A DNA stretch of 64,000 nt from Mycobacterium simiae (GTDB lineage: Bacteria > Actinomycetota > Actinomycetes > Mycobacteriales > Mycobacteriaceae). The notes beneath the pieces were generated by a model. The model saw only the letters and a list, made by a program, of their open reading frames with translations, ran no database searches and had not been told where the DNA came from. The stretch covers positions 1,116,001-1,180,000 of the forward strand of contig NZ_AP022568.1 of NCBI RefSeq assembly GCF_010727605.1, written 5' to 3'. The position numbers were made by a program, and so were the translations under genes. Positions 2,698 through 44,739 of this stretch are shown here, piece by piece; the stretch's first letter is position 1; every line of letters starts with the position of its first letter.

Positions 2698-2740
2698 CCG
2701 GCCGACAAACGCACAACCTCCGAAACCTAAGGAGCCCTTC

Positions 2741-3487: not shown

Positions 3488-3518
3488 AACCGTCGTACCG
3501 CGTCGCCGCTCGCACGGG

Positions 3519-4193
3519 TTACGAATTCGAATTGTTCCGTGTGATTAGCGCAGTGGTTTCCGCGGATACGGGCGCCTCGAGAAATCCCGTGAGCCCATCG
3601 ACCACGCCGCTGACGAACAGGGCGAAGGGGACGATTGCGTCATCGCGGCGGATCGCCCGCTCGCGTTCGGCGGCGATGTGCACCGCGAGATCTTGGGCGT
3701 GCTGAATTCGCATGACACGCACCGGGTCCGGCAGGTGTGATAGCAGGCGCTGCATCCCGGAGGTGAACTCTTCCTGCGACCGCATCGCATCCGATTGGAA
3801 CAGGACGACGTCGACCTGCCCACTGCGCTGCAGCTGCTCGACAAACGACACATACGAGCTGTCCGGCGACTCCGCGAACTCGAGCAGCGGCAGGACGTGC
3901 GCCTCCAGTTGCGCGCGCAGATCGTTGGGATCCGCTCGGGCCCGTAGTAGCGCGCGTCGTTGCGTCAGGTCGCTTATTCGGTAGGCGAAGATCGCCCGCA
4001 GCAGGCCGTCTTTGGATCCGAAGTGGTAGCGGATGGCCGAGTTGTTCGAGGACCCCGCCTCCATAGAGATCTGGCGCAACGAGACGCCCGCGAGTCCGTG
4101 CTCGGCGAAAAGCCGCTCGGCGGCCAGCACCAGTTGCAACGCGGTGGCCGGCGCGGGTCCTCGCGGTGTGCTCACCACCAGATCATTGCGCAT
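3519..4193 (-). CDS. TetR family transcriptional regulator
   Basis: 224 aa from the ATG at 4193. The N-terminal domain has a TetR helix-turn-helix (VSLRQISMEAGSSNNSAIRYHF pattern around residues 35–60), then a long helical ligand-binding region with IQHAQD and a C-terminal VSGVVDGLTGFL helix. It converges on the SDR gene at 3487 and is divergent from the DUF4345 gene at 4354, which it may control. The in-frame extension to 4406 is rejected because it would cover the next gene's ribosome site and encodes low-complexity sequence. Confidence 0.88.
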   Translation of the reverse strand: MRNDLVVSTPRGPAPATALQLVLAAERLFAEHGLAGVSLRQISMEAGSSNNSAIRYHFGSKDGLLRAIFAYRISDLTQRRALLRARADPNDLRAQLEAHVLPLLEFAESPDSSYVSFVEQLQRSGQVDVVLFQSDAMRSQEEFTSGMQRLLSHLPDPVRVMRIQHAQDLAVHIAAERERAIRRDDAIVPFALFVSGVVDGLTGFLEAPVSAETTALITRNNSNS

Positions 4194-4353
4194 CGGCCGC
4201 CGCCGAGTGGTCGAGGGCTTGGGGCAGGCGAGCCCAGAGCGTTGGGGGGTGGAACCTGGGCCGACGCCTCGACGATCTGTTGGCTGAAGTTGCGAACGAT
4301 ACCGGCGCCAGCGGCCATACTGACTCCTGGCGTGATCAAAACAGGAGGCTGCG

Positions 4354-4731
4354 GTGACGATCTTGGTGCTGGTAGTGACCGCCGTGTTTTTCTTGGGCAT
4401 GGGCATCTATGCATTGGCGGCTCCGGCGGCGTTGATTCGGGTATTCGGCATCACGCTGTCCAAGCCGGAGTCCCGCGCCGAGGTACGTGCCGTCTACGGC
4501 GGCTTCGGCCTCGCGATCGCCGGGGCATTGGCATTCGCGGCCCAGCAATCGGACACCGGGTCGCCTCGAACGGGAATCATGATCGCCGTCGGCCTGGCCC
4601 TGGCGGGTATGGCATTCGGCCGGCTGGTTTCCGCAGTCATCGACGGCCGGACTCCCTTCTATCCCAACTGGTTTTACTTTCTCGTAGAGGTGGTGGGCGC
4701 CACCGCGCTGCTGCTTACCGCACGGGGATGA
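4354..4731 (+). CDS. DUF4345-type four-helix membrane protein
   Basis: 125 aa with four predicted membrane helices: residues about 1–25, 48–65, 75–95 and 105–122. The pattern (GIYALAAPAAL...; AEVRAVYGG.GLA.A; PFYPNW near the last helix) matches the small DUF4345 family, whose function is unknown. The start is a GTG with an AGGAGG site six bases upstream. Its stop overlaps the next gene's start (ATGA), so the two are translationally coupled. Confidence 0.8.
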   Translation: MTILVLVVTAVFFLGMGIYALAAPAALIRVFGITLSKPESRAEVRAVYGGFGLAIAGALAFAAQQSDTGSPRTGIMIAVGLALAGMAFGRLVSAVIDGRTPFYPNWFYFLVEVVGATALLLTARG

Positions 4732-5459
4732 CTACGGTCGAACGGCCACCGCGGGATCCGAATGCCGTCAGCCGTCGTCACATGCTGCGACTGGTCGGCA
4801 ACGTCGGATTGGCCGCCACCATTGCCGCCTGCGCACCGCCGAGCGTGGCGGATCCCGCCGCGCCGAATCCTGTTGCCGCACCGCTACTCTGCCGTGACGC
4901 CTGGGGTGCCCGCCCGGCGCGGCCTGGTGGACGAGTCCATACGATCACCCGGATGACGCTGCACCACGAAGCTGTGGTGCTCGGCGACAACCGCAATAGT
5001 CCCAGCCGGCTGCGCCAGGACCAGCGCTATCACCAGGATCAGCTGGGCTGGATCGACATCGCCTATCACGTTGGGGTGGACCGCAACGGCAACATCTACG
5101 CACTGCGCGGCACCGAGTATGCGGGTGACACCGCGACGGACTACAACACCATGGGCCATTTCCTCGTTTTGTGTGAGGGCGACTTCGATCGCGAGGAGGT
5201 GTCGGAGGCCCAGCTGCATGGTGCCGCGTTGGCATTCGCCTGGGCCGCACAACGCTTCGTCATCGCGCCCGACACCCTTGCGGGCCATCGGGACCTCGCC
5301 AACACGTCGTGCCCGGGGGCGAACCTCTATGCCCATCTGAGCTCCGGTGACTTGAAGCGGCGCATCACCAACCTGCTGGCCGCCGGACCGGTCAACCTGC
5401 GGTCGTTCTGTGGACCCGAAGCGGCCGAGCGAGTCGCAGCAATCGAGGCCGGCCACTAG
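4728..5459 (+). CDS. Exported N-acetylmuramoyl-L-alanine amidase (PGRP/Amidase_2 type)
   Basis: 243 aa. The N-terminus has twin arginines (residues 16–17), a hydrophobic stretch and a lipobox-like TIAAC with Cys35, so it is probably a Tat-exported lipoprotein. The mature part is an Amidase_2/PGRP domain with predicted zinc ligands His79 or His80 (TLHHEA), His187 (AGHRD) and Cys195 (TSCPG), and the conserved Tyr113 (IAYHVGVD). It would cleave the bond between MurNAc and L-Ala in cell-wall peptides. The start overlaps the preceding DUF4345 stop. It is similar in type to the mycobacterial PGRP-amidase Rv3594 from memory; not aligned. Confidence 0.85.
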   Translation: MTTVERPPRDPNAVSRRHMLRLVGNVGLAATIAACAPPSVADPAAPNPVAAPLLCRDAWGARPARPGGRVHTITRMTLHHEAVVLGDNRNSPSRLRQDQRYHQDQLGWIDIAYHVGVDRNGNIYALRGTEYAGDTATDYNTMGHFLVLCEGDFDREEVSEAQLHGAALAFAWAAQRFVIAPDTLAGHRDLANTSCPGANLYAHLSSGDLKRRITNLLAAGPVNLRSFCGPEAAERVAAIEAGH

Positions 5460-5468
5460 CAGCCGTAC

Positions 5469-6293
5469 TCAGTGCACCCGTTCTATGGCGGTGCAGCGCG
5501 TGCCGTCGATGGTCAACAGCACCGCCCCCATCGTCATCGGCCCCGACGCCAACCGGTACGGGGGTAACGCGCCATAGTCCTCACCGCGGATCTCGGCCAC
5601 CCAATGCTCCGGGTCGATGCCGATGACACCGCCTGTCGCGCCGGTCATTCCGACGTCGGTGACCAGCGCGGTGCCCCCGGGCAGCAGATGCAGCGGCAGC
5701 GTCGCCTCGTGGGTGTGGGTACCTAACACCGCGGCGGCAGTGCCGGCAACAGCGTGGGCGAATGCCTGCTTTTCGTTGATGCTCAACCCGTGGAAATCCA
5801 CGATGACCGCGCCGCTCCGGTCAATCGACTGCCACGCCTGCCACGGGGACGTCAGGTGTTGTCGTCCGGTCAACCATCGGCCGAACAACGGCTCCGGCTC
5901 CACCACGGCGGTCCTGCTCATCAGGTTGACCACGGTGAAATCCATTCCCGAGACATTCATTTGGAGCACCCCGGAGCCGGGCAGACCGTCGGGCATGTTG
6001 AACGGGCGCAGCACCCTCGGGTGGGCGAGCACCTTCTCCACGTCCGGCATATCTCCGTCCCAGGAATGATTGCCCCCGGTGATGACGTCGACGCCGGACT
6101 CCAACAGGCGCTCTGCCGCTTCAGCATTGAGCCCAAAGCCGGTTCGGATACGGGGGCCGCTGCGCTGCGCGTTCTCCGCGTTGACCACGGCAAGGTCGAC
6201 CTCGCATTGCGAACGCAGCCCGGGCATGCGTTCGCAGACATAATCGAGTGCAGCCGGACCGACGACATCGCCGAGAAAAAGCACGCGGGCCAT
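5469..6293 (-). CDS. YmdB-like metallophosphoesterase
   Basis: 274 aa from the ATG at 6293, which follows GGGGGAAC. The order of metal-binding motifs fits the YmdB/TIGR00282 family: GDVVG at residues 8–12, VNAEN at 37–41, GNHSWD at 74–79, VDFHG, then GTHTHEA and TDVGMTG. YmdB enzymes hydrolyse cyclic nucleotides such as 2',3'-cAMP with a di-metal centre. It ends nine bases from the amidase stop, converging on it, so the two are not in one operon. Family assignment firm, substrate inferred from the family. Confidence 0.85.
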   Translation of the reverse strand: MARVLFLGDVVGPAALDYVCERMPGLRSQCEVDLAVVNAENAQRSGPRIRTGFGLNAEAAERLLESGVDVITGGNHSWDGDMPDVEKVLAHPRVLRPFNMPDGLPGSGVLQMNVSGMDFTVVNLMSRTAVVEPEPLFGRWLTGRQHLTSPWQAWQSIDRSGAVIVDFHGLSINEKQAFAHAVAGTAAAVLGTHTHEATLPLHLLPGGTALVTDVGMTGATGGVIGIDPEHWVAEIRGEDYGALPPYRLASGPMTMGAVLLTIDGTRCTAIERVH

Positions 6294-22903: not shown

Positions 22904-23587
22904 ATGACCGGTAGTGCGAAGCGAGTCCGAGACAAGGACGGCAAGCAGCGCGCCCTACTGGAGGCGGCCACTGAAGTGTTCGCCGAACAAGGATTTGATG
23001 CGGCGGTGACGAAAGAGATAGCCCGGCGCGCTGGCTGTTCAGAAGCGATGCTTTTTCACTATTTCGGTGACAAGCAGGGCATCTTCGAGCAGGTCGTATC
23101 ACGTCAGATAGCCCAGGGAGTTACCGAAGCCGAGGACAAAGTCATGGAGTCTTTGCCCGACAGGTTCGTCGATTTCGTGAGGCAACTCTTCCTTGCGCGG
23201 CTGTTAGTCAAACCGCGCGGTGACACCGTGCCAGGTTGGGACATAGCCGGGCGCGCGCTGTCCGACCCCGCCTTCTCCCTGCGGATCATGCGTCCGAATC
23301 ACCAGCGACGTGTGCAGGTGATCGCCGACGGCATCGCGCATTATCAAGACCTCGGCCAAGTCACGCCCCACGTAGATCCCGTTACGGTGGCCGAGCTGCT
23401 CGCCAATTTCACCATCTTCACCACGACCGTCGGCCCGCGCTGGTTCGGTACAACCGAGGCTGAGATTCGTGCTCAGATCGACCTTGGGGCTCGAATCTTC
23501 GCCGAGGGAGTCCGCGGCTCCGCAGCAAGCGGGCCCTCCCGTCGCGCTGGCCGCTCGCGGCGCCGCCCTCACATCACGGCGCCCTGA
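22904..23587 (+). CDS. TetR family regulator of the P450/catabolic locus
   Basis: 227 aa. Helix-turn-helix at residues about 15–60 (TKEIARRAGCSEAMLFHYFGDK). The ligand domain is followed by a basic, Arg/Ser-rich tail of about 25 residues that is unusual for TetR proteins. It is divergent from the alcohol dehydrogenase with one operator between them and probably also binds the two operators at 20.2 kb. The control of the whole 10-kb locus by this one protein is inferred from the shared palindrome. Confidence 0.88.
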   Translation: MTGSAKRVRDKDGKQRALLEAATEVFAEQGFDAAVTKEIARRAGCSEAMLFHYFGDKQGIFEQVVSRQIAQGVTEAEDKVMESLPDRFVDFVRQLFLARLLVKPRGDTVPGWDIAGRALSDPAFSLRIMRPNHQRRVQVIADGIAHYQDLGQVTPHVDPVTVAELLANFTIFTTTVGPRWFGTTEAEIRAQIDLGARIFAEGVRGSAASGPSRRAGRSRRRPHITAP

Positions 23588-23773
23588 CATTTGAATGGCA
23601 ATCGCCGGCCTCTCAAGCTGTTTCATCGCCTAAGGGCCCGGCATAAGCCTTGGCCTGGTCTTCTACGGGTCTGCCGCAAATTGGGCCCAGTCGGCGACCG
23701 ACCTCCACTACTCATCCACCTTCGTCCGCGGAGGATGGACTGAGCCTGCACGGCACACATCGCATCTTGTTTG

Positions 23774-23794
23774 GTGGAGCTGCCGGGAATCGAA
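23774..23794. other. attL: displaced ssrA 3' end
   Basis: A 21-bp copy of the tmRNA 3' end (starts GTGGAGCTGC, ends GGGAATCGAA). The bases just outside, TG at 23772–23773 region, complete TGGTGGAG, the complement of CTCCACCA. This end therefore keeps the chromosomal sequence with the encoded CCA, now 20 kb from the rest of ssrA. Beyond 23794 the similarity to tmRNA stops. Confidence 0.88.
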
Positions 23795-24337
23795 ACCGAT
23801 GCCCCACCTGGGCTTTTGCGGACTGAGCTGCAAATTCGCTACTTCTCGTTCCCGTTCGGTCCCGCCGGTTACCTGCGGTTTCGCATTCAAGTCTTGACGG
23901 CGTCAAGACCAGCGGAGCTACCCAGGCCCCTGCCGCCACGGCGGTCAAAGCTGTGGTGTCGTCTCAGGCACGCCCTATGTAGGCCGCGACGACTCCCTCG
24001 ATCGCGCCGCGCCCATATCGCCAACGTTGGCGTCGGGTTTGGCTCTAGAGAAAAATATTCAAGCATGCTTCTAAAGTGCTGCAACGTTGCCTTGTAGGGC
24101 GAAATCGCCCCGGAGGGGAGCTGGCAAGTAATGGCATATCCGTCAGTGACCTCGCCATCACCTCTACTCGGGGTTGATGCAGTGACGCATAACGTTTCCG
24201 AGAACGGGGGCAGCGGACGGGCGACCCCGCGAAGCTGCGCAGCATGCGTGGGCGAAACCCGCGTACAAGTCATGGCGGCGAACACCTGGCAGGGCCGCGC
24301 GCGCTTGGCCCGCGATGAAGGCTACGTAGACGGTGTC
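23795..24337. other. Gene-poor left end of the element with a perfect palindrome
   Basis: No supported gene in about 540 bases. GTCTTGACG-G-CGTCAAGAC at 23891–23909 is a perfect 9-base-arm inverted repeat about 100 bases inside attL; it could be a recombinase or regulator site. Other short open frames here lack start signals. Confidence 0.5.
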
Positions 24338-25766: not shown

Positions 25767-25972
25767 CGCTTTGGGGGACGGCCGACGCGACTACGGCTCC
25801 CGGGGCTTCGCTACGGTTAACAGCAACCTCGACTTGCGAGTGATGCGCGCATGTTGTCTTAATCAAGTTCGATGACGGTGCACTTGGAGGTCGGCAATTT
25901 ACGCCCGGCCAGTGATCCCTATAAGGCCGGAATGCTCTCTTCACATGAGTGGTTGTGCAATCATCGGCTGTC

Positions 25973-28351
25973 ATGGACCTTGCCGAGTTCGTGAGGCGGA
26001 CAGACGTCGAGCAATCGGTTTTGCTGCTAGGGGCCGGTGCCAGTGTTCCGTGCGGCGGACAAACAGGTGTCGAACTAGCCAGGGACTTGTGTGACACGCT
26101 TTCCTCAGGACAAATCGAATCAGATGAGTTGGCTGAAGCGGCCAGTCTGCTGGAGGAACGCTACGGACGCCAAGCTCTCGTTGAGGCCCTGTCAGTCAAG
26201 TTGGAACCACTCCGCCCCGATGGACCGACTATAAGTCTGGTATCGCTGCCTTGGCAACGGATATATACAACAAACTTTGACCAGGTGATTGAGCGCGCAT
26301 GTCAAGAAGCAGAAAGATCCTTTGAAGTTATTCGCTCGAATCGTGACTTTACAAAGCTCGACAGCGGACGCCTAGAGGTCCTCAAAATCCATGGTTGTAT
26401 TACCCGCGACCGCGCCTTGGGCCATCGCGACAGCATGGTCCTCACTGAGAGTGATTATCAGGAATTCGATAATCAGCGCGAAGCACTGTTCGCCAAATTG
26501 CTGTTTGAGCTCCACACAAAAGACGTTTTGATTATTGGCCAATCTTTAAAGGACCGACATCTTCGAGACCTCATAGACGAAGTTGCAAAGCGCGCTAAAC
26601 GCCAGAACACATCTAATCGGATTCGAACATTGATTTATAGTTCTGACCCTGCCAGACTACGCCTAATCTCTGAGCGTGGATTAGAGGCTGCATCCGGCAG
26701 CATTGCGGCATTTATAGACGCAGTAATGCGTTCAGGAAAATCTTCCGAAGCTTCCAAGCCGAGAAGTGCTAGGGGTACCCTTCCAAACCTATTGCTACCG
26801 CGAACAGAAAAAATCGCAAACTCGATTAATAAGCCAGCTGATGCGCCGCGCATGTTCAATGGGTCCTCCGCATCCTGGGCAGATATAGAGAGCGGTTATA
26901 CGTTCGCCCGTACCATCGAAAATTTGCATGCGGATGCACTTGAGAAAGGCGATTACACTTACCTGACAATCCTTGGTGCGGGAGGCGTAGGAAAGACTAC
27001 CGCCGCGAGGCGCATACTTTATCGGTTGCACAAAGCCGGATTTGATGTTTACGAGCATGTTACCGAATTTCCCTTTACTCACGAACCATGGCTCGAAGTT
27101 GCGAGCTCCGCAAAAGCAGGGAATCGACCAGTTTTTCTTCTGGTTGACGAGGCCTCCAAGCATCTATCTGGGCTCAACCGACTAGTCGCCGAATTGGATC
27201 GCGAGTCAAACAGCTACCTGCGAATCGTCTGTACAGCGCACTTGAGCGCGTGGACCCAACGTGCCGTGTCTGGATTGCTACGAAAAAGTGGACGCGAAGA
27301 GACTCTGAAGATTCTGCAGAAGCAGGATGTCAGAAACCTGGTCGACTTGATCCGGACTCAAAGCGACATTGGGAAGCTGGTTGACCCGCAGTTTGCTGGT
27401 ATGAGTAGATCGAATCAAATTAATGCCGTGCACACACAATGTGAGGCGGATATGTTTGTGGCACTGAAGTACTGCTTTCCCGGCGACGGAATCGATGAAA
27501 TTATTTTAAAGGAATACCGCGATCTGTCCGAGGATGTTCAAGAGGTATATAAGGTAGCTGCCCTATTGGGCGCCACGTACGCGATGCCGTCCCGTCAGCT
27601 AATTCTGGACGTAGTCGGATACAGCTGGGAAGAGATACCTGTAATACTCAAACAGTCTCGCGGTGTGCTTACGGAACGATTGGTCAATGCAAAGGAAGGC
27701 ATATACACGTGGAGCACGCGCCACCCTATAATTTCGCAAGTATTGGTCCGCTTCAAGTATACCGATCAAGACGAGCTCTATTATGCCTATCGGCGGATCG
27801 TGGCAACGCTTAATTCTGCAATGCTTCTGGATCGCAACATCATTCCCAGTATATGCAATAATGACTACGGGATCGGTCGCATCAAGGATGCTTATAAAAG
27901 GATAGAGCTGTATGAACTTCTATGCGAGAAGACTTCGCTCGGGGCTCCTTGGCATAAATTAATTTCCAATTGGATGGACCTCGACTTAGACAAAGCATCC
28001 CTCGCGATACGTCGGGCAGAGAATACGATTGGAATCGATTCGCCGATCCAACGCTATAAGGTCAGATTGAATTTAGTCAGATCTGCACAATACCGCAGAT
28101 TAGGCACTGATGACTATATCGCATTGATACTTGAAGCTGAAGACGTTGCGCGAGAGGGCCTTGAGAAGTGGCCGGACAACAAATACTCATACCTCTCTCT
28201 TGTGGATGTCGGCAAAGCTCTCCATGAAGCAACCCGGTCGACAAGAATTCTGGAGGACTGTGTCCCACTTCTAGATCGGGCATACACAGATCTCCTCGAC
28301 AACGATATTCTCAGGTACAAACGTCTGGCGGAGCGCGCAATAGCCGACTAG
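25973..28351 (+). CDS. SIR2–STAND NTPase, candidate NAD-depleting anti-phage protein
   Basis: 792 aa from the ATG at 25973. Residues 15–250 are a SIR2-like NADase domain: GAGAS (20–24), TTNFD (99–103), catalytic His140 (LKIHGC), GQSLKD (189–194). A P-loop NTPase follows: Walker A GAGGVGKTT (334–342), Walker B FLLVDEA (387–393). The remaining 350 residues are helical, without a recognised repeat, and would be the sensor part. This SIR2–STAND order is that of Avs-type and related abortive-infection proteins, which sense a phage component and destroy NAD. The gene is clearly AT-richer than the host. It stands alone on the plus strand, apparently constitutive. Start uncertain (GTG 25949 is possible). 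Confidence 0.85.
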   Translation: MDLAEFVRRTDVEQSVLLLGAGASVPCGGQTGVELARDLCDTLSSGQIESDELAEAASLLEERYGRQALVEALSVKLEPLRPDGPTISLVSLPWQRIYTTNFDQVIERACQEAERSFEVIRSNRDFTKLDSGRLEVLKIHGCITRDRALGHRDSMVLTESDYQEFDNQREALFAKLLFELHTKDVLIIGQSLKDRHLRDLIDEVAKRAKRQNTSNRIRTLIYSSDPARLRLISERGLEAASGSIAAFIDAVMRSGKSSEASKPRSARGTLPNLLLPRTEKIANSINKPADAPRMFNGSSASWADIESGYTFARTIENLHADALEKGDYTYLTILGAGGVGKTTAARRILYRLHKAGFDVYEHVTEFPFTHEPWLEVASSAKAGNRPVFLLVDEASKHLSGLNRLVAELDRESNSYLRIVCTAHLSAWTQRAVSGLLRKSGREETLKILQKQDVRNLVDLIRTQSDIGKLVDPQFAGMSRSNQINAVHTQCEADMFVALKYCFPGDGIDEIILKEYRDLSEDVQEVYKVAALLGATYAMPSRQLILDVVGYSWEEIPVILKQSRGVLTERLVNAKEGIYTWSTRHPIISQVLVRFKYTDQDELYYAYRRIVATLNSAMLLDRNIIPSICNNDYGIGRIKDAYKRIELYELLCEKTSLGAPWHKLISNWMDLDLDKASLAIRRAENTIGIDSPIQRYKVRLNLVRSAQYRRLGTDDYIALILEAEDVAREGLEKWPDNKYSYLSLVDVGKALHEATRSTRILEDCVPLLDRAYTDLLDNDILRYKRLAERAIAD

Positions 28352-28377: not shown

Positions 28378-28980
28378 TTAAGTTACGACGTCAAATTTCG
28401 CGAAATATCGGTACATCGTCGCCCGGCTTACCCCGAGGTACCTGGCAATCGCTTTACCTGTATGACCGTCGGATTGCATCCGCTTGGCTGTAGCGATGTG
28501 CTCGACGTCACCCACCTTCCGAGGCCGGCCAAATTTTGTGCCGCTAGCGCGAGAAGCTTTTCGCTTCAATGCCGTTCGTTCCTTGATCAGCTCCCGCTCA
28601 TACTCCGCTAGCGACCCCAGCACCCCTATCATCAGGCGCCCGGCCGGAGTGGACGAGTCGATGCCGTCGCTGATGGAGATCAACTTGACGCCACGGTCAC
28701 TCAATTCTTTGACCGTCGCCAAGACGTGCAGCATGTTGCGGCCCAGCCGGTCCAGCTTCCATACCACGACAACGTCGCCCTCGCGGACGTACTGCATCAG
28801 CGCGGCCAGCCCGGGACGGTCATCCCTTGCGCCGGACATTGTGTCGGAGAACGTCTTCGTGGCCCCTGCCGCTTCAAGGGCCTCGTTCTGCTGGTCGAGG
28901 GTTTGGGCGACGGTGGAGACTCGGGTATAGCCGACCCGTTGGCCGAGTGAGCGTCGGTCAACGCCAACTTCGTGACTCAT
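28378..28980 (-). CDS. Serine recombinase of the resolvase/invertase family
   Basis: 200 aa from the ATG at 28980. The N-terminal catalytic domain has YTRVST with the nucleophile Ser22 and the arginines of KLDRLGRN; GVLGSLAEYERELIKERT is the long E-helix. A C-terminal helix-turn-helix (GKAIARYLGVSRATMYRYF) binds DNA. Size and layout match Tn3-type resolvases and DNA invertases. No transposase or inverted-repeat pair was seen beside it. It may resolve multimers of the excised element, or be left from another transposon. It converges on the SIR2–STAND gene. Confidence 0.9.
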   Translation of the reverse strand: MSHEVGVDRRSLGQRVGYTRVSTVAQTLDQQNEALEAAGATKTFSDTMSGARDDRPGLAALMQYVREGDVVVVWKLDRLGRNMLHVLATVKELSDRGVKLISISDGIDSSTPAGRLMIGVLGSLAEYERELIKERTALKRKASRASGTKFGRPRKVGDVEHIATAKRMQSDGHTGKAIARYLGVSRATMYRYFAKFDVVT

Positions 28981-29128
28981 ATGTATTGGAATCGCAGTTT
29001 TGCGCAGGTTATTTCCGAGACGAAGTTTTGAGACAGTCCGACCTCGCAGAACGTGACCGGGTCCGACCTGCCGGTCGCTGTCTTGTATCTGATCTTTTTT
29101 GAGACAGCGCTCCAAGCTCTGCGCTGGG

Positions 29129-29971
29129 CTAAGGGTAGGTCGTGCTGCTGAGCTGTTTCACACTTCCGCTTGGGTCGCGACTGAAGACCATGACCCGCAA
29201 GCTTGGGATTGCACCGGATTGTGCAAGATTAATCATGCCGAGCGCGTTCGTGCAGCATACTGACTTTGCTGTGCCTGAATAGCACAGGTCGATGAACCCG
29301 GGTGGCATGAAGCGACCGCCGAGCGGTTCCATACTGTTAGCCCAGCGTTGCCTCCCGTCCCACCACCGGGACAAGGCCTGTTCGTGCGCGGTTGCCCGGC
29401 CGATTTCGACATCGAAGACTTGAATCGAGGTATATCTCGCTGCAGCTAGTTCGCGGAATAGTTGTGGCCCCTGGCCTGACCAGGTCAAAGTTCCCTCGAT
29501 GACGACGTTCTCTCCCCGGCTCACACAGATCTGCCGCATCTGATCAATTAGGGCGGTGGACTCCCGATGAACAAGGGGCGCTAGCTCACGGGGGGCTATG
29601 CAATGCCCGTCGGCGAGTCGTCGATGGACCAAGTCGTCATAGATGCCATCACTTAAGGCCTGTGCGATGAGGTAGTCCTTAACGATGTCGGCGTCGAGAA
29701 TTCGGTAATTCGTGAGCCGGGGCACCTGGGCACGGAGAAGGGTGGTTTTCCCGGCACCCGGTGGACCCGCAGTCACGATCGCCAAGCGGCTCACCTGGGG
29801 GCGAGGACCAGAATCGAGATATTTCTGGATGATGCTTTTCCGAAAGCGCCGACGGCCGATATCTGAGGCGTACATCTTGTTGGTGCAATGGTCAGCGTCG
29901 GTGTTCAGCGCGTGACCCCTGCCCGAGAGGAAGTTGAGTTCGGCGGCGACGTCGGCGCGGGATCCTGTCAT
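29129..29971 (-). CDS. Zeta-toxin family kinase
   Basis: 280 aa. Walker A GPPGAGKTT at residues 69–77, DADIVKDYL at about 93–101 and EGTLTW further on match the zeta toxin/PezT fold, which phosphorylates UDP-sugars and blocks cell-wall synthesis or acts on related substrates. It follows the antitoxin gene by five bases, the usual order of this toxin–antitoxin type. The C-terminal 100 residues (RWWDGRQRWANSMEPLGGRF) are longer than the core. Probably stabilises the element in its host. Confidence 0.85.
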   Translation of the reverse strand: MTGSRADVAAELNFLSGRGHALNTDADHCTNKMYASDIGRRRFRKSIIQKYLDSGPRPQVSRLAIVTAGPPGAGKTTLLRAQVPRLTNYRILDADIVKDYLIAQALSDGIYDDLVHRRLADGHCIAPRELAPLVHRESTALIDQMRQICVSRGENVVIEGTLTWSGQGPQLFRELAAARYTSIQVFDVEIGRATAHEQALSRWWDGRQRWANSMEPLGGRFMPPGFIDLCYSGTAKSVCCTNALGMINLAQSGAIPSLRVMVFSRDPSGSVKQLSSTTYP

Positions 29972-29976
29972 TCCCG

Positions 29977-30492
29977 TCAGTAGCTTTGAACTGCTTGCTC
30001 TGCCTCAGCTGCCTGCTCGGTACGGGCCGCCTCCTCGAGCTGGTCCCGCTGCCGCTCCATCAATTGGCTGAACTCCCCTTCGGACAGAAGGTCTCGGTAG
30101 TAGGCCGTCTCGATCTGATCCCAGTCCCCACGGATGTACGCGTCGGTGGCGATGCCCTCAATGCTGGGAACGTGCCCGAAGGAATACGTCCGGTTTAGAA
30201 GCATCTCCATCATCGTCTCGTCGTCGATCAACCCGGCAGCGCGACGATCTATCACCTCTGCAGGTGTTTCTTCTAGGCGCGACGGGTCCTCGTCAATCCG
30301 GCGAATAATCCGCTGGACGGTCGCTTGCGAGATGCTTCCCACGACTTCACTAATCAGTCGCTGCGGTACACCGACATCGTGAGCGGCGTGGTAGATCTCC
30401 CTGTGGAGATCTTTCTCCGCGACGCGTAGATGCGCCGCCCCTGCGGTCAGGCGCTGTAGGGAGTCATCGCTTCGATCAAGTTGTCCAGGCAT
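29977..30492 (-). CDS. Antitoxin partner of zeta toxin, with helix-turn-helix
   Basis: 171 aa from the ATG at 30492 with an AGGAGG site. Residues about 20–60 form a helix-turn-helix-like segment (VGVPQRLISEVVGSISQATVQRIIRRI) that probably binds the palindrome just upstream, and the acidic, Glu/Gln-rich C-terminus (LMERQRDQLEEAARTEQ) is a likely toxin-neutralising region. It is larger than the 90-residue epsilon antitoxin of plasmid pSM19035. Position directly before the toxin gene supports the pairing; sequence family not recognised by name. Confidence 0.75.
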   Translation of the reverse strand: MPGQLDRSDDSLQRLTAGAAHLRVAEKDLHREIYHAAHDVGVPQRLISEVVGSISQATVQRIIRRIDEDPSRLEETPAEVIDRRAAGLIDDETMMEMLLNRTYSFGHVPSIEGIATDAYIRGDWDQIETAYYRDLLSEGEFSQLMERQRDQLEEAARTEQAAEAEQAVQSY

Positions 30493-30503
30493 CTCCAACC
30501 TCC

Positions 30504-30770: not shown

Positions 30771-32870
30771 TCATGGCTTGACGTTTTCCAGCATCGCCTT
30801 CGCTATCGCAGCGGCGTCGGGTATCGCCCACCCAGGGTCTCTTGGCCAGCCGTTAGTCGGGTCGTAGCTGCTGGCTGCGTTTGGGACTTGGCAGGTGCGC
30901 GTTTCGACGATGACGTTCTCGTGCGCACCTAATGCCTGCTGACAGGCATCCGGTCCGTTCAGGCCACTATTAGTCGCCATGGAAACCGTGATGAAGTCTC
31001 CTTGTCGCTGCACCGCGCCCAGTACATAACTGGCGCCGTTTTCGTAGCCGAGGGTCGCAGCAACCTCTCCCTTGGCGCACGTGCTCCATTGAGCCTGCGA
31101 AGAGGTCAGAAAGTCTTGCGCTTGACCGGCGGACGGGTACACGGCGACGGTCTGCTCAACAAGATGTGGCCCTTTGTCCGGCCCACCACGGTAGAGGTTG
31201 CCATACATCTGAGTCTTGATTTCCGTGGGCTGGGAGGCAGCGTATACGTCGTGCTCACCAGTGAAGACCACCCCAACACACGACCGGGGTTTGACCTGAC
31301 TCGAATGATCTGACATCCCATACGACGAGGAAGTGATACCGAGCGCAATACCCCCGCCAGCAGTGGCCGGATTGTCACTGACGTTTGCTCCCAGCAGCTT
31401 GCTTAACTCGTCTCCCGTTAGCAACACGTGATCAATCGCCTCCGGCGAGAACGTCGGCCGTGCTGGCGGTGACGTTGGTGGCTCACTTGCCGACCCGACG
31501 CGATCAGATTCATCGAGGAGCAGGACGCCATTCACCGACGACACCTTGAACCAACGGCTTTCAGTATTGGACGTTCCGTCGCGTCGGAGATAAGTGAGTT
31601 CGGCAACGACGCTGCCGGTGTCGCGCGGACTAACCGAGAGAACCGTCACCGAATCGATCGTTGCCCAGAAATTTCTGAATTCGCTTTGCCTTGTCTGGTT
31701 TTGGTAGCGAACATCGAGCTTGGCCCATGCATCGTCGGGATGTGCTGGGAGGTCGGCGTAATAGCCTATGACGAAGTCACGCATGCTCTCGAAAGTGATC
31801 GGTGGCGCAGCTGGTGCACCACTACCGGTGCTGCTATTCCCGTGTGGGGCATCTGCTGGTCGCCGAAGTAAGAGCGCGGCCGCACCGATCGAGACGACCA
31901 ATAGAACAACAACTATGGCCATTAGGTATCCAGCCCGTCGCTTAGTTGCTTCGGCCCGAGGGACGACTGCAGGCTCGGCCCTGGGCGTCGCCGACGCAGT
32001 GGGAGCTGAACTTGTTGTTCTATTGGCCGGGTCGATTCTCTCGGCCAGAGCGCGTGCGAAATCCGAGCAGCGTTCGAACCGGTCGTCGGGGCGTTTGGCC
32101 AGGCCGATGGCGAGCACGGGGTCAAGTTTCGCCAGAGCCGGTCGTCGGTCAGCCAAAGCGGGTGGAGGAACGTTGAGATGGCGACTGATGACAACTGCCG
32201 GATTAGAGTTCTCGAACAGCCGCGATCCAGTGAATAGATGGTAAGCCGTGGCCGCCAATGCATACTGATCCGCGCGCCCATCAACGTCTTCGCCGAGGAG
32301 CTGTTCGGGCGCGCTGTAAGCCACCGTGCCCACGGTCATGTTCGTCTTGGTAAGGCCGCTGATGTCGTCGACCTTGCGGGCTATGCCAAAATCCGTCAGC
32401 AGAACTCGCTGCTCGCCCTCGTCGCTGACGTGGGTCATCATGATGTTGCCTGGCTTTACATCTCGATGCAGGAGATGTCGTTTGTGGGCATAGTCCAGCG
32501 CGCTGGCGACCGCAGTGACAATCCGGACCACTTCTTCGACCGGCATGCCAGCCGGGTAACGATCGGCTAGAAGCCGCGACGCATCGAGACCGTCGACCAA
32601 ATCCATCGAGATCCAAAGCTGGCCGTCTTCCTCGCCGCGATCATGCACACCGACGATGTGGGGATGCCACAGGGTCGAAGCAAGATCAGCTTCCCGGTTA
32701 AACCGGGCCCGGAACTCTTCGTCGGCCGACCACTCGCGAGGCAGCAATTTCAGTGCGTCACGCCGGGGCAGTCGCGGATGCTGCGTTAGATACACCTCAC
32801 CCATGCCGCCAGAGCCCAATAGGCGAATGACGGTGTACCCGGCGAAAATCTCACCGTTTGCCAAGGGCAT
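30771..32870 (-). CDS. PknH-like receptor Ser/Thr protein kinase
   Basis: 699 aa. Cytosolic kinase domain at 1–275 with glycine loop [12 protein letters not shown] (17–28), Lys41, HRD (135–137) and DFG (160–162), and an activation loop with Thr-rich [13 protein letters not shown] Pro/Ala linker leads to one membrane helix at about 315–335. Outside are a small SnoaL-like region and a PknH-type sensor domain with four cysteines (SCVGVVF, STCAKGE, DACQQAL, RTCQVP), probably two disulfides. All catalytic residues are present. Complete receptor kinases are normally chromosomal in mycobacteria, so its place on a mobile element is notable. No EmbR-like target is adjacent. Confidence 0.92.
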
Positions 32871-35475: not shown

Positions 35476-35645
35476 GGACTGCCTCCATGGAACGCACTAG
35501 ATCTGAGTGCTCCGTGATCCCCAGTCTCTCGGAGAGCGCCGGAATGTCAACTGCCATTCCGGCCGGGATCGCCACTGACTTGCGCAGCGGTGTCGGCTTT
35601 AGTCCCATAGAACGAGGTAGGTTGGGCCGGTCGAGGGGGGCAGTG

Positions 35646-35984
35646 GTGGTCGGCAGGAAGCTGGACGTCGATCTCGACGCGTTAGCGTGTTCGGCAGCGC
35701 ATGTCGGTGGGCAGGCTGAGGATTTAGCGAGCGCCCACTTGTCGTCGGACGATCAGATTACGGCTGCACAATCGGGTTGGGTGGGCAGCTCCGCAGCAGC
35801 GCTGGCCATCAAGACCGACGTGTGGTTGGAGACCTCCCGCAGGCTTCTGGGCCGGGTCGGTAGTCATGCGACAGCGCTGAGCAATGACAGGATCACCTTT
35901 TCAGCGATGGAGAACGAGAACGCTGAGGGCATGGGCGCGGTAGTGCCGGGTGCCGACGGGATGCCTCCTTCAGCCAGGGCGTGA
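35646..35984 (+). CDS. WXG100-like type VII secretion substrate
   Basis: 112 aa; GTG at 35646 (35643 also possible) after GAGGGGG. All-helical, with the W-x-G turn in SGWVGSSAAAL between two helices, as in WXG100/ESX proteins; a C-terminal YxxxD/E export motif is not obvious (FSAMENENAE is the nearest). It is directly followed by a larger protein with its own N-terminal WXG motif, so the two are likely to be secreted together as a heterodimer by an ESX system of the host. No ESX machinery genes are in this window. Confidence 0.72.
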   Translation: MVGRKLDVDLDALACSAAHVGGQAEDLASAHLSSDDQITAAQSGWVGSSAAALAIKTDVWLETSRRLLGRVGSHATALSNDRITFSAMENENAEGMGAVVPGADGMPPSARA

Positions 35985-35990
35985 CCAACG

Positions 35991-37064
35991 ATGTTGACCG
36001 TGGCCGATATTGATCGATGGAGCGCCGATGCGGTGCGAACGGTTTTCCATGCTGCAACCGCACGAGGGCAGGCCACACTCGACGCCTCACGACAACTGAG
36101 TTCATTGGCCGTTTTTGACAGCTGGGAGGGAGCGACGGCCGAAGCTCGCAAACACACCAACGCGTCCATCCGCCAAGACCTCGACGCACACGGCAACGAG
36201 TCCCTCGCGGTGGCCCAGGCCGCAGCCAAGGCCGCCGACGACATCGAGCACGTTCAGTCCAAGCTACGCACGTTGCGCCATGATGCCGCCGAGCTGCACA
36301 TGCAGATCGACCCGCTGAGCAACAAAATTGTCCCGACTTCGGCCGCGCTCCCGACCGAAGCCTTGATCGCCGAAAACCAGCTGCAGCCCCAATTGAATGC
36401 GATCCTCGCCGAAGCCAATGCGGTCGACCAAGAGCTGGCGACCGCTATCAATATGGCCGACGGAGACATCCCAGTACCACCGGGGGCGGGTGTGCGAATT
36501 CCAGGCGGGCAGTTGGATGCCCCGCCCCCGGGCGAGAACACCACGACCGGACAATGGCAGCTCGACACGTCGCGCGCCTACGACGAACCCTTCTCGTCCC
36601 CCCAAGGTCCCTACATCCCATGGCGGCCTACCACCATCCCGGAAAAGCTTGCGACCGGACCGACCACAGGACTGCTCTCGACCGATAAAACCGGTCTGAG
36701 CAACACCGCCAATGGATTCGATTTACAGCAGGGATACAAAATCCGACTTACCGGCGGCCAGGCCACCGGGATCACCAAGATGGTCCAGGGTGCCGACGGG
36801 AAGTGGTACCAAGCCCGGTGGGTCGAAAACACCTACGAAATGCAGACCACGAAGGTGCTTCAAGGAACTGGCAGCTTGGGCGGTATCACGGGCTACCCAC
36901 TCGTCATGCCGTGGAAGCCGGTATCGCTGGGCGAAATCATGAATACTTCCGCGATGTACCCCGGTAAGACCTTCTACCTTCCAGACGGGTGCGGTGGCTC
37001 CATACCGATCGTCAACGGCAAATTGCCGACACCCACTGTTCCGGTCATGACCGCTCCGCATTGA
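35991..37064 (+). CDS. WXG-headed type VII effector with variable C-terminal region
   Basis: 357 aa. N-terminal helical region of about 160 residues with DSWEGATAEARKH (W-E-G turn) like the mycobacterial Rv0026-type proteins, from memory. A Pro-rich linker (PVPPGAGVRIPGG...PPPGENTTT) follows, then a C-terminal domain of about 170 residues (YKIRLTGGQATGIT, KWYQARWVEN, YLPDGCGGS) that I do not recognise. Placed between a WXG partner and an exported protein, it fits a polymorphic-toxin-like effector. Toxic activity is a guess; no catalytic motif was found. Confidence 0.7.
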   Translation: MLTVADIDRWSADAVRTVFHAATARGQATLDASRQLSSLAVFDSWEGATAEARKHTNASIRQDLDAHGNESLAVAQAAAKAADDIEHVQSKLRTLRHDAAELHMQIDPLSNKIVPTSAALPTEALIAENQLQPQLNAILAEANAVDQELATAINMADGDIPVPPGAGVRIPGGQLDAPPPGENTTTGQWQLDTSRAYDEPFSSPQGPYIPWRPTTIPEKLATGPTTGLLSTDKTGLSNTANGFDLQQGYKIRLTGGQATGITKMVQGADGKWYQARWVENTYEMQTTKVLQGTGSLGGITGYPLVMPWKPVSLGEIMNTSAMYPGKTFYLPDGCGGSIPIVNGKLPTPTVPVMTAPH

Positions 37065-39463: not shown

Positions 39464-40028
39464 GCCGCACCGCCTCCGGCAGCACACAACTGATGTCGAT
39501 GACGTATTCGCTTTCCAAGCGTCCGATTTCGTGAATGTATGCCAACACTCTGTCCGGCTTTGCGTCCAGTGCGTAGACATGCCCGACACCACGTCCGCGT
39601 AATTGGCCGTGGGCGAACCGCCGAGCCACTGTCAGATCTGAGGTCCACGACATGCCCTCCCGCCCGCTCGGCGTGCAGCCCCGGTAGACGGTCACGGGTC
39701 CGGTTGGCGGTGCCGCCGGCCGGCCATCCTCGGTGTATCCAGCCGTTCGGAAAAGCTCGTCCCACACGTCTTGTTCAAGCGCGCTCTCAGGGTGTTCGGA
39801 TATCGACCAAGCGACGGCGACGACGCTGGGGTGCGCAGCAAGGTCGAGCGATCCGCTGTAGTAAAGGCCGGAAAGCAACGCAGGCGCATTGTTGCGCCCC
39901 AGGCGGGCGCAGGCTAAATCAAATGTCTCCGCGTCCATTTGGCCGTCGAACTGGTAATCTCCATTCTCATCTTCGTATAGGCCTCCAAGATAAAGACTCT
40001 CGCAAGGTGTAGTTGCAGCTTTGGACAT
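39450..40028 (-). CDS. Candidate ADP-ribosyltransferase (R – SxTS – ExE class)
   Basis: 192 aa. The C-terminal half has the three parts of an R-S-E type mono-ADP-ribosyltransferase in the right order: VYRG with Arg116, SWTS (127–130) followed by DLTVARRFA, and E172-S-E174 (RLESEYVID). The N-terminal 100 residues are acidic and unrecognised. It starts with the last base of the primase stop (TAATG), so it is translated with the replication gene. Phage-encoded enzymes of this class modify host proteins or nucleic acids. Fold call by motif only; no structure search done. Confidence 0.6.
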   Translation of the reverse strand: MSKAATTPCESLYLGGLYEDENGDYQFDGQMDAETFDLACARLGRNNAPALLSGLYYSGSLDLAAHPSVVAVAWSISEHPESALEQDVWDELFRTAGYTEDGRPAAPPTGPVTVYRGCTPSGREGMSWTSDLTVARRFAHGQLRGRGVGHVYALDAKPDRVLAYIHEIGRLESEYVIDISCVLPEAVRLVED

Positions 40029-42442
40029 TAGTGGTTCCTTTCACTGGATTTGGACTGGTGTCCGTGGTCAACTTCGATCTGGGGATGTCCCAGATTTGTC
40101 AGTAAGTGGCCCAGCTCAGCATCGGACTCACCCGGACTCTTATCGAGGGCTAGGGGCCTACTGACATTTCTGGGGACGATGAGGGCGGCGGGATCAATAT
40201 CATCGTTGAGGGAGTAGCGCCAGATTGTCTTGTTGTTCATCCCTTCCTCCTCCCCACACACCACCGCGCCGAGCATCTGCAGCGCTTGCAATTGCCGGTC
40301 GACGGTGCTGCGCGGCTTTCCAACTCCTTTCCGGACTTCAGTGGTGGTGCTGTCCGGATGCGCGGCAAGGAAGTCGATGATCGCCAGTCGTAGCGGCGGC
40401 ATCGAGTCTCGCGCGCAACGGATCGCCAGCCGCATTGCGGCGCTTCGGCTCATACCGATTGCGGCTCCGCCCCGCATCACCTGGGCGAGCTGTTTGGCGA
40501 ACCTCGTCGGCATCTCTGGTGCGTGGGCATCGACCACGTTGCCCCTGCCATCGAACTCGACGCCCGTGCGTGCCAGGGTAACTAGGTTTGCCGCAGCCAG
40601 TAGTTTGTCGGTTTCCTCGGGGCTCACTTCGATACCCGTGGGGCTGGACCCAGCCAGGACATCGGCGACTGCCGTTGACAATTCGGCACGCATTTTGTCT
40701 TCGTTGCCGGTATTGGCGATAGCCTGGCGGCCCGCGCAGACACGGTCTTTGGTGGAATCCATCCGGAGCAATACGAAGCGATCACCCATGGCAGCGATGA
40801 CGGCATGAGCGGTATCCCAAGCAGTTGTCACCGCACCCACCAACGCAATTCGTCCTTCCCACTCCAGCGTCCGACCACCATCGGTCCCGACCGTCCGGAC
40901 CCAATGACCGTCGTAGATCTCCCGCAACGCAGCAAGGACTTCAGCGCGCATTTCACGGCCCATCGACAAGATCGACGTCACATCCTTGATGACCAACAGA
41001 CCCGTTTCACCGATCTGACGGAGCAGTCCCCCGCTGGCGTCGACGCTGCGCTCCTTCTTGGAAGTCGCTGACAACAGCGCACCTTGCGACGCGATCGTCG
41101 ACACGACATGGGCGCCCGGGCCGTGCAAAGCTTGCACTGTCTCGGTCTTTGCATTACCCGACCCGGAGACCAGCAGCAGCCAGAGTGGGTCGCCGTCGAG
41201 GCCCTCGACTGCTGCGGCAGCCATGCCCGCATTGATTGCATCTAAGTCATAACCGTCGCCCAGCCAATCCCGAAAGACTCTATGCGCCGTATCAAGTGCC
41301 GACGCCCGCTCAGCGTCGGTCCGCTCCACACGGACCCGCCTGGCCCCCGGGGTTGGTATATTGGGCATCTTCTCCGCGACCCGCTGGTGTACCTCATCAA
41401 GGTCAGCGACCCGCGCTTCTCGGACTGCCCAGGCGACGATCTCGTTCCATTCGTCGAGTGCTTGCCCATCGCTGCGCTGGCGTTCTTGACCATTCGGCTG
41501 TCTGGTCACTGCATCAAAGAACAGCGGCCTCAAGGTGTCGATCGCCGATGCCGCTGAAAAGTAGCCCGCCCGAGCTTCTTTCAATGCGCCGGTGACCACA
41601 GAGACCGTCGAGCTATGCCGACTCCGCTTTTCTCTGAAGCCCACCTTCATCGCCTTTACCCAGCCCTGCAAGATTTCTGGCCGTTGAGCACGGTGATATT
41701 CGGCGATGAACGCCGAGACTTCTGTGGTCGAGGAAGCAGCCTCCGAATGCGCGGTGGCGGTGCGGGAGTTGAGCGTCCTCCGATTCGCATCGACCAGGCG
41801 ACCTAGCGCTTCACCGGTCCGGTCTTGTGGGCCATCTGCGGCCAGGGCTTGCAGATCCGGAGGTTCCACCCATCGGTATTGGCGGACGGCGCCGTCCAGC
41901 TTGGAGAGCTTCTTGGTCGGAGGAATGAACAGGAACCCGCGTCCAGTGCCCTCAGGCGTGCCAGCCTTGAGATCGATTCCAGGGCAGACGTTATCGAGGG
42001 AGCGGACACCGATAGTCGACACCAGTTCGTGGGTTCCGCCCGACGGGGTTTGGGCCACGCCGTAAACCCGAGGCATGGTGCCGCTGGCTGCAAGATCGGC
42101 GCGGGACTTATCGCCTCCGTTTCGAGGATCGGTGTCCACTCCGTCGACCTTGCGCCCGCAGACCATGCCGAGAGCGTCACCGGGCTGGTACTTCTCAAGC
42201 ACACGAAGATCCGGTTCTGTTGACTGCCACTTTTTCGGCAACCAATAGCCGCACCCGTGGTGGCCGCCGCTGGAATCCCAACCGCCGTCGAAATGCTTGG
42301 CCGGCTTCGCGATGAAAACGGGTACACCTGCCTCAATCAGGACCCGCGCCACCCACAATGGGTCGGTGCGCTCGTCCGCGCCCCGATCTGGCAAGCCCGC
42401 AGATTCTGAGCCCGATCCCTCAACGGCCGCGCTCGATATCAT
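40028..42442 (-). CDS. Primase–polymerase/helicase replication protein
   Basis: 804 aa. N-terminal bifunctional primase/polymerase (Prim-Pol) domain with GVDTDPRNGG (Asp103, Asp105) and SGGTHEL (His138). A helicase-like P-loop follows: GSGNAKTE at 427–434, then LLVIKDVTSIL as Walker B and GDRFVLLRMD. A winged-helix-like end (TTEVRKGVGKPRSTVDRQLQALQ) completes it. Such fused proteins replicate plasmids, satellites and phiRv-like elements. The start overlaps the previous small gene by four bases. It would drive replication after excision. Confidence 0.85.
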   Translation of the reverse strand: MISSAAVEGSGSESAGLPDRGADERTDPLWVARVLIEAGVPVFIAKPAKHFDGGWDSSGGHHGCGYWLPKKWQSTEPDLRVLEKYQPGDALGMVCGRKVDGVDTDPRNGGDKSRADLAASGTMPRVYGVAQTPSGGTHELVSTIGVRSLDNVCPGIDLKAGTPEGTGRGFLFIPPTKKLSKLDGAVRQYRWVEPPDLQALAADGPQDRTGEALGRLVDANRRTLNSRTATAHSEAASSTTEVSAFIAEYHRAQRPEILQGWVKAMKVGFREKRSRHSSTVSVVTGALKEARAGYFSAASAIDTLRPLFFDAVTRQPNGQERQRSDGQALDEWNEIVAWAVREARVADLDEVHQRVAEKMPNIPTPGARRVRVERTDAERASALDTAHRVFRDWLGDGYDLDAINAGMAAAAVEGLDGDPLWLLLVSGSGNAKTETVQALHGPGAHVVSTIASQGALLSATSKKERSVDASGGLLRQIGETGLLVIKDVTSILSMGREMRAEVLAALREIYDGHWVRTVGTDGGRTLEWEGRIALVGAVTTAWDTAHAVIAAMGDRFVLLRMDSTKDRVCAGRQAIANTGNEDKMRAELSTAVADVLAGSSPTGIEVSPEETDKLLAAANLVTLARTGVEFDGRGNVVDAHAPEMPTRFAKQLAQVMRGGAAIGMSRSAAMRLAIRCARDSMPPLRLAIIDFLAAHPDSTTTEVRKGVGKPRSTVDRQLQALQMLGAVVCGEEEGMNNKTIWRYSLNDDIDPAALIVPRNVSRPLALDKSPGESDAELGHLLTNLGHPQIEVDHGHQSKSSERNH

Positions 42443-43171: not shown

Positions 43172-44284
43172 TCAAGCCAGCAGAGTTGCCATTGCCGCCG
43201 CCGCGACCTGGCCAGCCGAACGGTCCAGGTGCGCATATATGCGGGCCGTGGTGGCGGCATCCTCGTGACCAAGGTGAGCCGATACGGTAATCAGCGGCAC
43301 CCCCTCACGCAGCAGCCAGCTGGCACAAACATGGCGGAGATCGTGGATGCGCGGCCTGGCGGTCAACAACAACTTGTCTGGGTTGTCCTGGTCGTTGGTC
43401 ATGGCCTTGGTTACGCTCGGAGCCCATACGTTGCTGCGCCAGCTGTACAACCGGATGGGTCCGCCCTCGGTGTTGACGAATAACCACTCGTGGCCATAGT
43501 CAAGCTGGTCGAGCACCGCAGCGGGGACGTTGATAGTGCGCGTCGACCGTCGGGTTTTGGGCTGCCCGATCTCATATTTGGCCGCGCCGTTACTCGGCGT
43601 CCTCTTCCAAGCCCTGGTAATCCTGACGGTGCTGTTGGCGCGGTCGACGTCACCAGGTTTCAATGCCGTGGCTTCCGAAAATCGGCATCCACTGGCCACC
43701 AGAAAGTCAAGGAACGGGTGCCAGCACTCGGTGAAAGATGCCCTCAGCAAACGATACTCGTCTTTGGTCAGCAGGGTCATGTCGCGCCGGAGGGTGCGCG
43801 GGACCCGAATTCCCGCTGCCGGGTTAGCGGGGATCTCGCCCGCCTTGACGGCCAGGTTCAGGACGCCCGACAAGAAGCCCAGTTTGTTGCTGATCGTCTT
43901 GCCGCTGGCACCGCCAGCCGACATCCTGTTGACCCATTTGGAGACGTCGGGGCGGCTGAGTGTCGACAGCGGAATATGACCGAGCACCGGCTCGATGTCA
44001 CGCGCAAGGTAGCGCCGGTACTCAGCGATGGTCTTCTTCTCCACACCAGTCAGGGTGTCTAGGTGCTCGGTGACGTAGCTCGCGAGGGTATGCCCGCACC
44101 CGGGAAAGGAGACCTTCCAAATCTTGCGGGCCTCGGCCGGGCCTAACCGGTTACAGACGTCTTGAAACTTCAGCGCTTCGGCGTGGTCGTTGAAGCTAGA
44201 GGAAGTCTGCTTTCCGTCAAGGGTGTAAAGCACCGAGAAGTAGGCGGTGCCGTCCTTGCGGGTTCGGACGCGAATGGACGCCAT
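43172..44284 (-). CDS. Tyrosine integrase
   Basis: 370 aa from the ATG at 44284 (MASIRVRTRKDG). Arm-binding and core-binding N-terminal parts, then the catalytic domain with Arg201 (SGCRFSEA), His314 and Arg317 (HDLRHVC), His340 (LGHED) and nucleophile Tyr350 (ARIYAHL). All five key residues are present. The gene lies 90 bases inside attR and reads away from it, as usual. It would integrate into the ssrA 3' end. Confidence 0.95.
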   Translation of the reverse strand: MASIRVRTRKDGTAYFSVLYTLDGKQTSSSFNDHAEALKFQDVCNRLGPAEARKIWKVSFPGCGHTLASYVTEHLDTLTGVEKKTIAEYRRYLARDIEPVLGHIPLSTLSRPDVSKWVNRMSAGGASGKTISNKLGFLSGVLNLAVKAGEIPANPAAGIRVPRTLRRDMTLLTKDEYRLLRASFTECWHPFLDFLVASGCRFSEATALKPGDVDRANSTVRITRAWKRTPSNGAAKYEIGQPKTRRSTRTINVPAAVLDQLDYGHEWLFVNTEGGPIRLYSWRSNVWAPSVTKAMTNDQDNPDKLLLTARPRIHDLRHVCASWLLREGVPLITVSAHLGHEDAATTARIYAHLDRSAGQVAAAAMATLLA

Positions 44285-44373
44285 AGACGAGGAGCCTATA
44301 CCCGGATCTTGACGTACATCTTGACGCAGCATCGCTAACAGACGCTTCTAGGCCTCTGACCAGCATTTTCTCA

Positions 44374-44394
44374 GTGGAGCTGCCGGGAATCGAA
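44374..44394. other. attR: element/ssrA junction
   Basis: The same 21-bp core as at 23774–23794, here joined to the body of ssrA (CCCGGGTCC continues). On the element side the next bases are CTCA, so the base before the core is A, not G as at the left end. The core covers the T-arm and 3' acceptor strand of the tRNA-like domain. Confidence 0.9.
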
Positions 44395-44739
44395 CCCGGG
44401 TCCTACGGCATTCCCTCAAGGCTTCTCCGTGCGCAGTTCGCTGTGCCTCTACTCGGATCTCCTGGTCTCGCGAACTAGCCAGGATGACGATCCCAGTCGC
44501 TGTTTGATGTCCCCACGGGTCCCGCGACCGAACCCGTGGGTGGGTCCCTCTAGCTGATGCCAGGGTCCGGGCCGAGGGCGCTCCCGGTCTGACAGACTAG
44601 CTTCGCTTAGGCAGCGAGAGCGTAGTCGCGCTGATGTGAATCGGCGCTTATATAGTTGCAACGACGCTTACGGTGGTCTCTTGCCTGCACCGGCACGCTT
44701 CCCTTGATTCGATGCGCGAAGTCGAAACCGTTCAGCCCC
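44374..44739 (-). ncRNA. ssrA: tmRNA (transfer-messenger RNA)
   Basis: Read leftward, it starts GGGGCTGAA at 44739 and ends CAGCTCCAC at 44374; the two ends pair as the acceptor stem, and the T-arm (GGGTTCGAATCCC) is intact. The tag reading frame is at 44610–44645, ADSHQRDYALAA plus a TAA stop. tmRNA with SmpB rescues stalled ribosomes and tags the nascent chain. Integration has changed the 3' end: after GCTCCAC the DNA reads TGA, so CCA is not encoded and must be added by the CCA-adding enzyme. The displaced original end at 23774 does encode CCA. Confidence 0.95.

Follow-up and report, generated by a model that had tools for sequence, protein, structure and literature searches.

We describe a SIR2-STAND protein encoded within a 64,000-nucleotide stretch of the Mycobacterium simiae genome (contig NZ_AP022568.1, positions 1,116,001 to 1,180,000; here the window, in which all coordinates are counted). 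The protein is quite probably an Avs5-like, one-gene defense protein, in which a trigger would act on the C terminus, the nucleoside triphosphatase (NTPase) would drive assembly, and nicotinamide adenine dinucleotide (NAD) would then be depleted. This reading rests on the domain order, the conserved catalytic residues, the fold match to EfAvs5 and SAMD9, the location of the gene on a mobile element, and the defense-type neighbors of some relatives. By analogy, the window protein would work like Avs5 while lying outside the Avs5 sequence definition.

The gene (25973 to 28351, plus strand) is a single intact open reading frame (ORF) of 792 codons from ATG. Further in-frame GTG starts lie at 25949 and 25955; counted from the first of these, the frame runs uninterrupted to its stop at 28351 and encodes 800 amino acids (aa). 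In an alignment, the ATG at 25973 coincides with the one at which the mycobacterial relative in locus L011 begins, which supports this choice of start. Residues are numbered here on the 798-aa form (start at 25955), so that numbers on the 792-aa form are six lower. The SIR2 and NTPase motifs that an earlier note had read from this DNA were all present on the plus strand. They comprise the NAD-binding motif GAGAS (26030 to 26044; residues 26 to 30, read from the DNA), TTNFD (26267 to 26281; residues 105 to 109), and the HG motif with the predicted catalytic histidine (26390 to 26395; residues 146 and 147; His146 is His140 of the 792-aa form), followed by Walker A GAGGVGKTT (26975 to 27001; residues 341 to 349) and Walker B FLLVDEA (27134 to 27154; residues 394 to 400). 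Two Pfam profiles passed their cut-offs, SIR2_2 (PF13289), a predicted NADase effector domain, at 26258 to 26683 (85.9 bits; cut-off, 24.5) and nSTAND_NTPase5 (PF25199) at 26855 to 27265 (66.2 bits; cut-off, 34). Judged from its sequence, the protein is an NTPase of the STAND class, given PF25199 above its cut-off and intact Walker A and B motifs. The C-terminal 198 residues (27755 to 28348), a putative sensor, are predicted to fold into ten helices arranged as TPR-like hairpins. A promoter and terminator scan gave scores no better than those of shuffles.

Using phmmer, we found 46 proteins at an E value of ≤0.001, with the window protein counted in; 41 others (P0002 to P0042) cover 89 to 100% of the query at 27 to 55% identity. 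A profile built on 42 members matched 106 proteins at an E value of ≤1e-10, 73 of which are 700 to 900 aa long, 28 at least 950 aa, and 5 shorter than 700 aa. PF13289 and PF25199 are listed for all 106 (several relatives list PF20720 too), and Avs5 is absent from the source names shown for them. Named hosts include Mycolicibacterium, Cellulomonas, Microbacterium, Xanthomonas, Bradyrhizobium, and a Nitrobacter metagenome-assembled genome. By full-length similarity, the window protein is thus assigned to an unnamed compact SIR2-nSTAND_NTPase5 family of ∼800 aa that carries PF13289 and PF25199.

For conservation, we aligned 92 compact members pooled from both searches, including the window protein. 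Asn107, Asp109, His146, Gly147, and the Walker A lysine (Lys347) were identical in all 92, D398 of Walker B was kept in 91, and G26 and G28 of GAGAS were kept in 88, the remaining 4 being gapped there. Mean column identity was 0.42 in the SIR2 domain, 0.39 in the NTPase, 0.46 over residues 456 to 600, 0.40 over residues 601 to 700, 0.33 over residues 701 to 798, and 0.21 in the linker (residues 263 to 296). The presumed sensor is therefore mildly variable, and the linker is the most variable part. The window protein had no match in phage records, and the PHROGs profiles yielded two families of unknown function whose matches were confined to the SIR2 part.

Among solved structures, the top matches to the full-length model were EfAvs5 (PDB 9jap; 869 aa), human SAMD9, and the AVAST5 filament (9nc9/9nah; 769 aa). 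The modeled C terminus, composed of TPR-like helical hairpins, aligns with many TPR proteins, the C-terminal hairpins of EfAvs5 and SAMD9 included. Since the scores of 14-3-3 proteins against it come close to those of TPR proteins, we claim no type of ligand. A Foldseek search with the C terminus alone returned nothing at an E value of 0.001 or better; its best 50 matches were mostly TPR proteins, with EfAvs5 not among them. By sequence, the C terminus of the window protein showed no credible family and no recognizable repeat, and it matched nothing in the PDB below an E value of 0.06; TPR_19 and TPR_14 were weakly matched in the C termini of four of seven family members. The earlier description of a C terminus without a familiar repeat therefore holds for the protein's own sequence and fails for the model. 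It may recognize a new trigger, as was also proposed, though the modeled fold is a common one and the variability is only modestly above that of the rest of the protein.

The SIR2-STAND gene lies on a 20.6-kb island (23774 to 44398) in the transfer-messenger RNA (tmRNA) gene ssrA, and its proposed location on a mobile element was thereby borne out. The island is delimited by a repeat of the tmRNA 3′ end on the left (23774 to 23798, plus strand; 24 of 25 bases) and, on the right, by the 3′ end of ssrA itself (44374 to 44398, plus strand); in 200 shuffled windows, the repeat matched at most 20 of 25 bases. The integration site, ssrA, occupies 44374 to 44739 on the minus strand according to ARAGORN (Rfam RF00023, 135 bits at 44372 to 44739), and a tyrosine integrase gene (43172 to 44332, minus strand; PF00589, 66.9 bits) adjoins its end. 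The left end is further supported by another genome (G007), which at the same site has a second copy of the ssrA end and, after it, a stretch sharing 74.6% identity with window positions 23774 to 23909. In genome G001, which is 97.5% identical on the ssrA side, no window match was found past ssrA up to the contig end, and the left flank (22904 to 23800), apart from the repeat itself, was found in none of seven genomes.

The distribution of the family is patchy. Full-length members occurred in at least 3 of 396 genomes of the genus, with two candidates scored per genome, as well as in M. heraklionensis; a scan of the phylum with query A1, scored in the same way, gave a partial match in at least 1 of 396 genomes. 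In a midpoint-rooted tree of 48 compact and 8 long rows, the compact proteins split from the long ones (satellite and plasmid sisters) with 100/100 support. The window protein clusters with P0002 to P0013. The four remaining mycobacterial members lie elsewhere, at two other positions in the tree, and the starred branches require the mycobacterial label to have changed twice or more. Such patchy, repeated gain is what would be expected of a mobile defense gene. The gene is also poor in G+C (0.502) relative to the island (0.59, or 0.601 without the gene) and the left (0.624) and right (0.657) flanks. However, all six genes measured, those of the window and of five relatives (L001, L011, L012, L028, and L029), were lower in G+C than their surroundings, so low G+C content is a mark of this type of gene and not of a donor. 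The suggestion of transfer from outside the mycobacteria is thus compatible with the tree and starts from a genuine difference in base composition, but neither line of evidence points to a donor.

We compared gene neighborhoods by eye for the window and six other loci. Some relatives lie on viral contigs and plasmids; L029 is the end of a Mu-like prophage, and L028 is a prophage contig that carries ORFs for a terminase and an integrase (by eye). In L011, an integrase-like ORF (by eye) is present and PD-Lambda-1 (356 bits) lies 0.7 kb away, while L012 has recombinase-like ORFs (by eye) and PDC-S06 (258 bits) 7.6 kb away. We take PD-Lambda-1 to be a tested defense protein and the PDC families to be candidate defense proteins. 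In L046, a reverse transcriptase (PADLOC RT, 54 bits; best PADLOC rows RT, Cas1_IIIb, Drt9, and UG4) lies 1.3 kb away, with tRNA-Val on the opposite side. A membrane-protein-like ORF (by eye) overlaps this reverse transcriptase beside the SIR2-STAND gene, and the two (2212 to 5623) are possibly an unnamed DRT-type pair. The M. heraklionensis copy sits among metabolic-looking ORFs, with no defense neighbor seen. On plasmids, two relatives are annotated in separate pieces (L009, 8022 to 10187; L050, 3531 to 6551), the latter beside an insertion sequence.

The sole recurring neighbor was a PDC-S57-type stretch. In L011 it scored 74 bits and forms part of PD-Lambda-1, and in L012 it scored 21 bits; the two loci differ in its side and strand, and it was not seen in the window. 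Because no neighbor recurs in a fixed place across the loci compared, a one-gene system fits; the earlier proposal to that effect is likely, short of proof given that the neighbors were compared by eye.

How the protein might work can be outlined from Avs5. It would stay off in the resting cell until its C-terminal TPR-like domain bound something made by a phage or another invader. With nucleotide bound to the STAND NTPase, protomers could then assemble, and the assembled SIR2 domains would hydrolyze NAD. For the window protein, we infer the NADase activity, the triggering, the assembly, and the trigger by analogy, with NAD hydrolysis, the need for the Walker residues and the C terminus, and activation through filaments drawn from published Avs5 work. 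The same enzyme could instead protect the island against competing plasmids, integrative elements, or superinfecting satellites, an idea that overlaps with phage defense and that we consider rather doubtful in its own right. The gene sits on an island, relatives are found on viral contigs and plasmids, and longer sister proteins occur on contigs that are P4-like by eye; however, the closest characterized designs, Avs5 (PMC12931631) and DSR2, respond to phage proteins.

Two further explanations were considered. It is quite improbable that the protein serves signaling or housekeeping, its SIR2 domain deacylating a substrate or making a signal and its STAND part answering a host cue, even though the SIR2 fold serves deacylases too and "SIR2 family NAD-dependent protein deacylase" is the name given to some relatives. 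A role in addiction or stabilization, where the protein would kill or stop cells that lose the element, alongside a zeta-toxin-like gene, is very improbable. The convergent neighbor of the SIR2-STAND gene is a serine recombinase gene (28378 to 29115, minus strand; PF00239, 148.8 bits), and a zeta-toxin-like kinase gene lies beyond it (29129 to 29971, minus strand; PF06414, 48.3 bits), but inspection by eye of the other loci read revealed no partner antitoxin next to the relatives. In the window, the zeta-toxin-like gene is itself preceded by a 173-aa ORF without a Pfam family, possibly an antitoxin (29129 to 30498 for both, minus strand).

The remaining cargo of the island includes a PknH-like Ser/Thr kinase with an extracellular PknH_C domain (30771 to 32870, minus strand), small DUF732 and Excalibur proteins, and a large ORF that is replication-protein-like by eye only (40028 to 42442, minus strand; C-terminal helix-turn-helix, PF09339, 27 bits). 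At 35487 to 37064 (plus strand), a weak WXG100-like ORF (22.5 bits, below the cut-off) is followed by a 357-aa ORF without a Pfam family, possibly a type VII secreted pair. No capsid or terminase gene was recognized among the island ORFs looked at.

PADLOC and NCBIfam gave no whole-protein name for the window protein. When the 42 family members were searched against these libraries, the best matches among the 25 commonest families listed for each were ThsA (E value, 6e-26, SIR2 part) and Dsr2 (E value, 3.8e-11). The family, which has named members in Proteobacteria and Actinobacteria, has thus probably been overlooked by tools of this type. We recognized no experimental study of the compact family in the literature searched; PMC9122126 refers to SIR2-STAND proteins in the P4 hotspot. 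With Walker A and HG intact, the compact form could offer a small system for studying how receptors of this kind are switched on, and the protein may have relevance for mycobacteriophage host range.

We compared the window protein with SIR2 NADases of other defense systems (DSR2, ThsA, and KomC). ThsA (74 bits) and Dsr2 (42 bits) matched over the SIR2 part only, and ThsA, Dsr2, and PDC-S25 were rejected as identities because their matches were confined to that part. NTPase-only profiles (A2 and A4) recovered generic P-loops alone among the best 60 of 222 and of 189 matches to solved structures. In a viral library, clamp loaders and AAA ATPases made up most of the named proteins among the best 50 Foldseek matches, which also included one nSTAND3 phage protein.

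Avs5 is the nearest design: like the window protein, it joins SIR2, a STAND NTPase, and C-terminal helical repeats on one chain. The SIR2 domain of the window protein is N-terminal and carries GAGxS, TTNxD, and HG, and the model has a C-terminal repeat domain that aligns with that of EfAvs5 over 189 of 198 residues; the link in sequence runs through SIR2 and the NTPase. According to PMC12931631, Avs5 brings a roughly threefold drop in NAD+ in the first 10 minutes after infection and needs SIR2 residues including Asn110 and Asp112, HG/NG, Walker A, and Walker B; a section heading of that paper presents the C terminus as essential. Filament activation is described in PMC12700824 and in PDB titles. 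PMC12931631 also describes the Avs5 NTPase as nSTAND3 (PF20720), which reached 20.2 bits in the window protein, under its cut-off of 27.2, while PF25199 passed instead, and reports HG and NG at ∼1:1, compared with HG in all 92 compact members. The NCBIfam Avs5 model gave 16 bits against an equivalog cut-off of 1,000 bits, and the PADLOC Avs5 match (18 bits) covered the SIR2 part only; given these results and the PF20720 score, we rejected filing the protein as Avs5. The Avs5 model matched 21 of the 42 family members at an E value of ≤1 (best, 1.6e-6). In a separate comparison, it matched neither three relatives nor 14 controls, so that comparison is uninformative. Of the earlier assignment to an Avs-type SIR2-STAND protein, the Avs5 design on a mobile element with intact motifs stands, whereas membership by sequence models does not.

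SIR2-STAND-TPR proteins of P4-like contigs and plasmids (∼1,030 to 1,060 aa) share the pair PF13289 and PF25199 (five of five tested) but are longer, have TPR matches, and in some cases end in a cold-shock domain. Examples on contigs that are P4-like by eye are encoded at 7947 to 11057 in L031 and 7875 to 11066 in L032; with its C-terminal cold-shock domain, the L031 protein resembles SAMD9, with its OB fold, in domain order. The P4 hotspot, according to PMC9122126, holds STAND proteins that have repeats at the C terminus and in which SIR2 can serve as the N-terminal effector; we infer that these belong to the same family as the L031 and L032 proteins. The compact form and human SAMD9 share the order SIR2-STAND-TPR. 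SAMD9 additionally contains AlbA and OB domains, joined in vertebrates by SAM, and carries Gly in place of the Walker A Lys (PMC5445408), whereas that Lys is kept in every compact member and the window protein has no AlbA, OB, or SAM match in Pfam at an E value of ≤1. Tentatively, the compact proteins could form a separate branch of immune receptors between Avs5 and SAMD9-like proteins, with a sensor that is conserved instead of hypervariable and reads one widely shared phage feature; if so, a mycobacterial member would make the SAMD9-type switch (SIR2-STAND-TPR) testable in a small protein with both NTPase and NADase motifs intact. The window protein looks like a bacterial cousin of phage defense proteins and human antiviral proteins, seemingly built to destroy NAD on sensing an invader.
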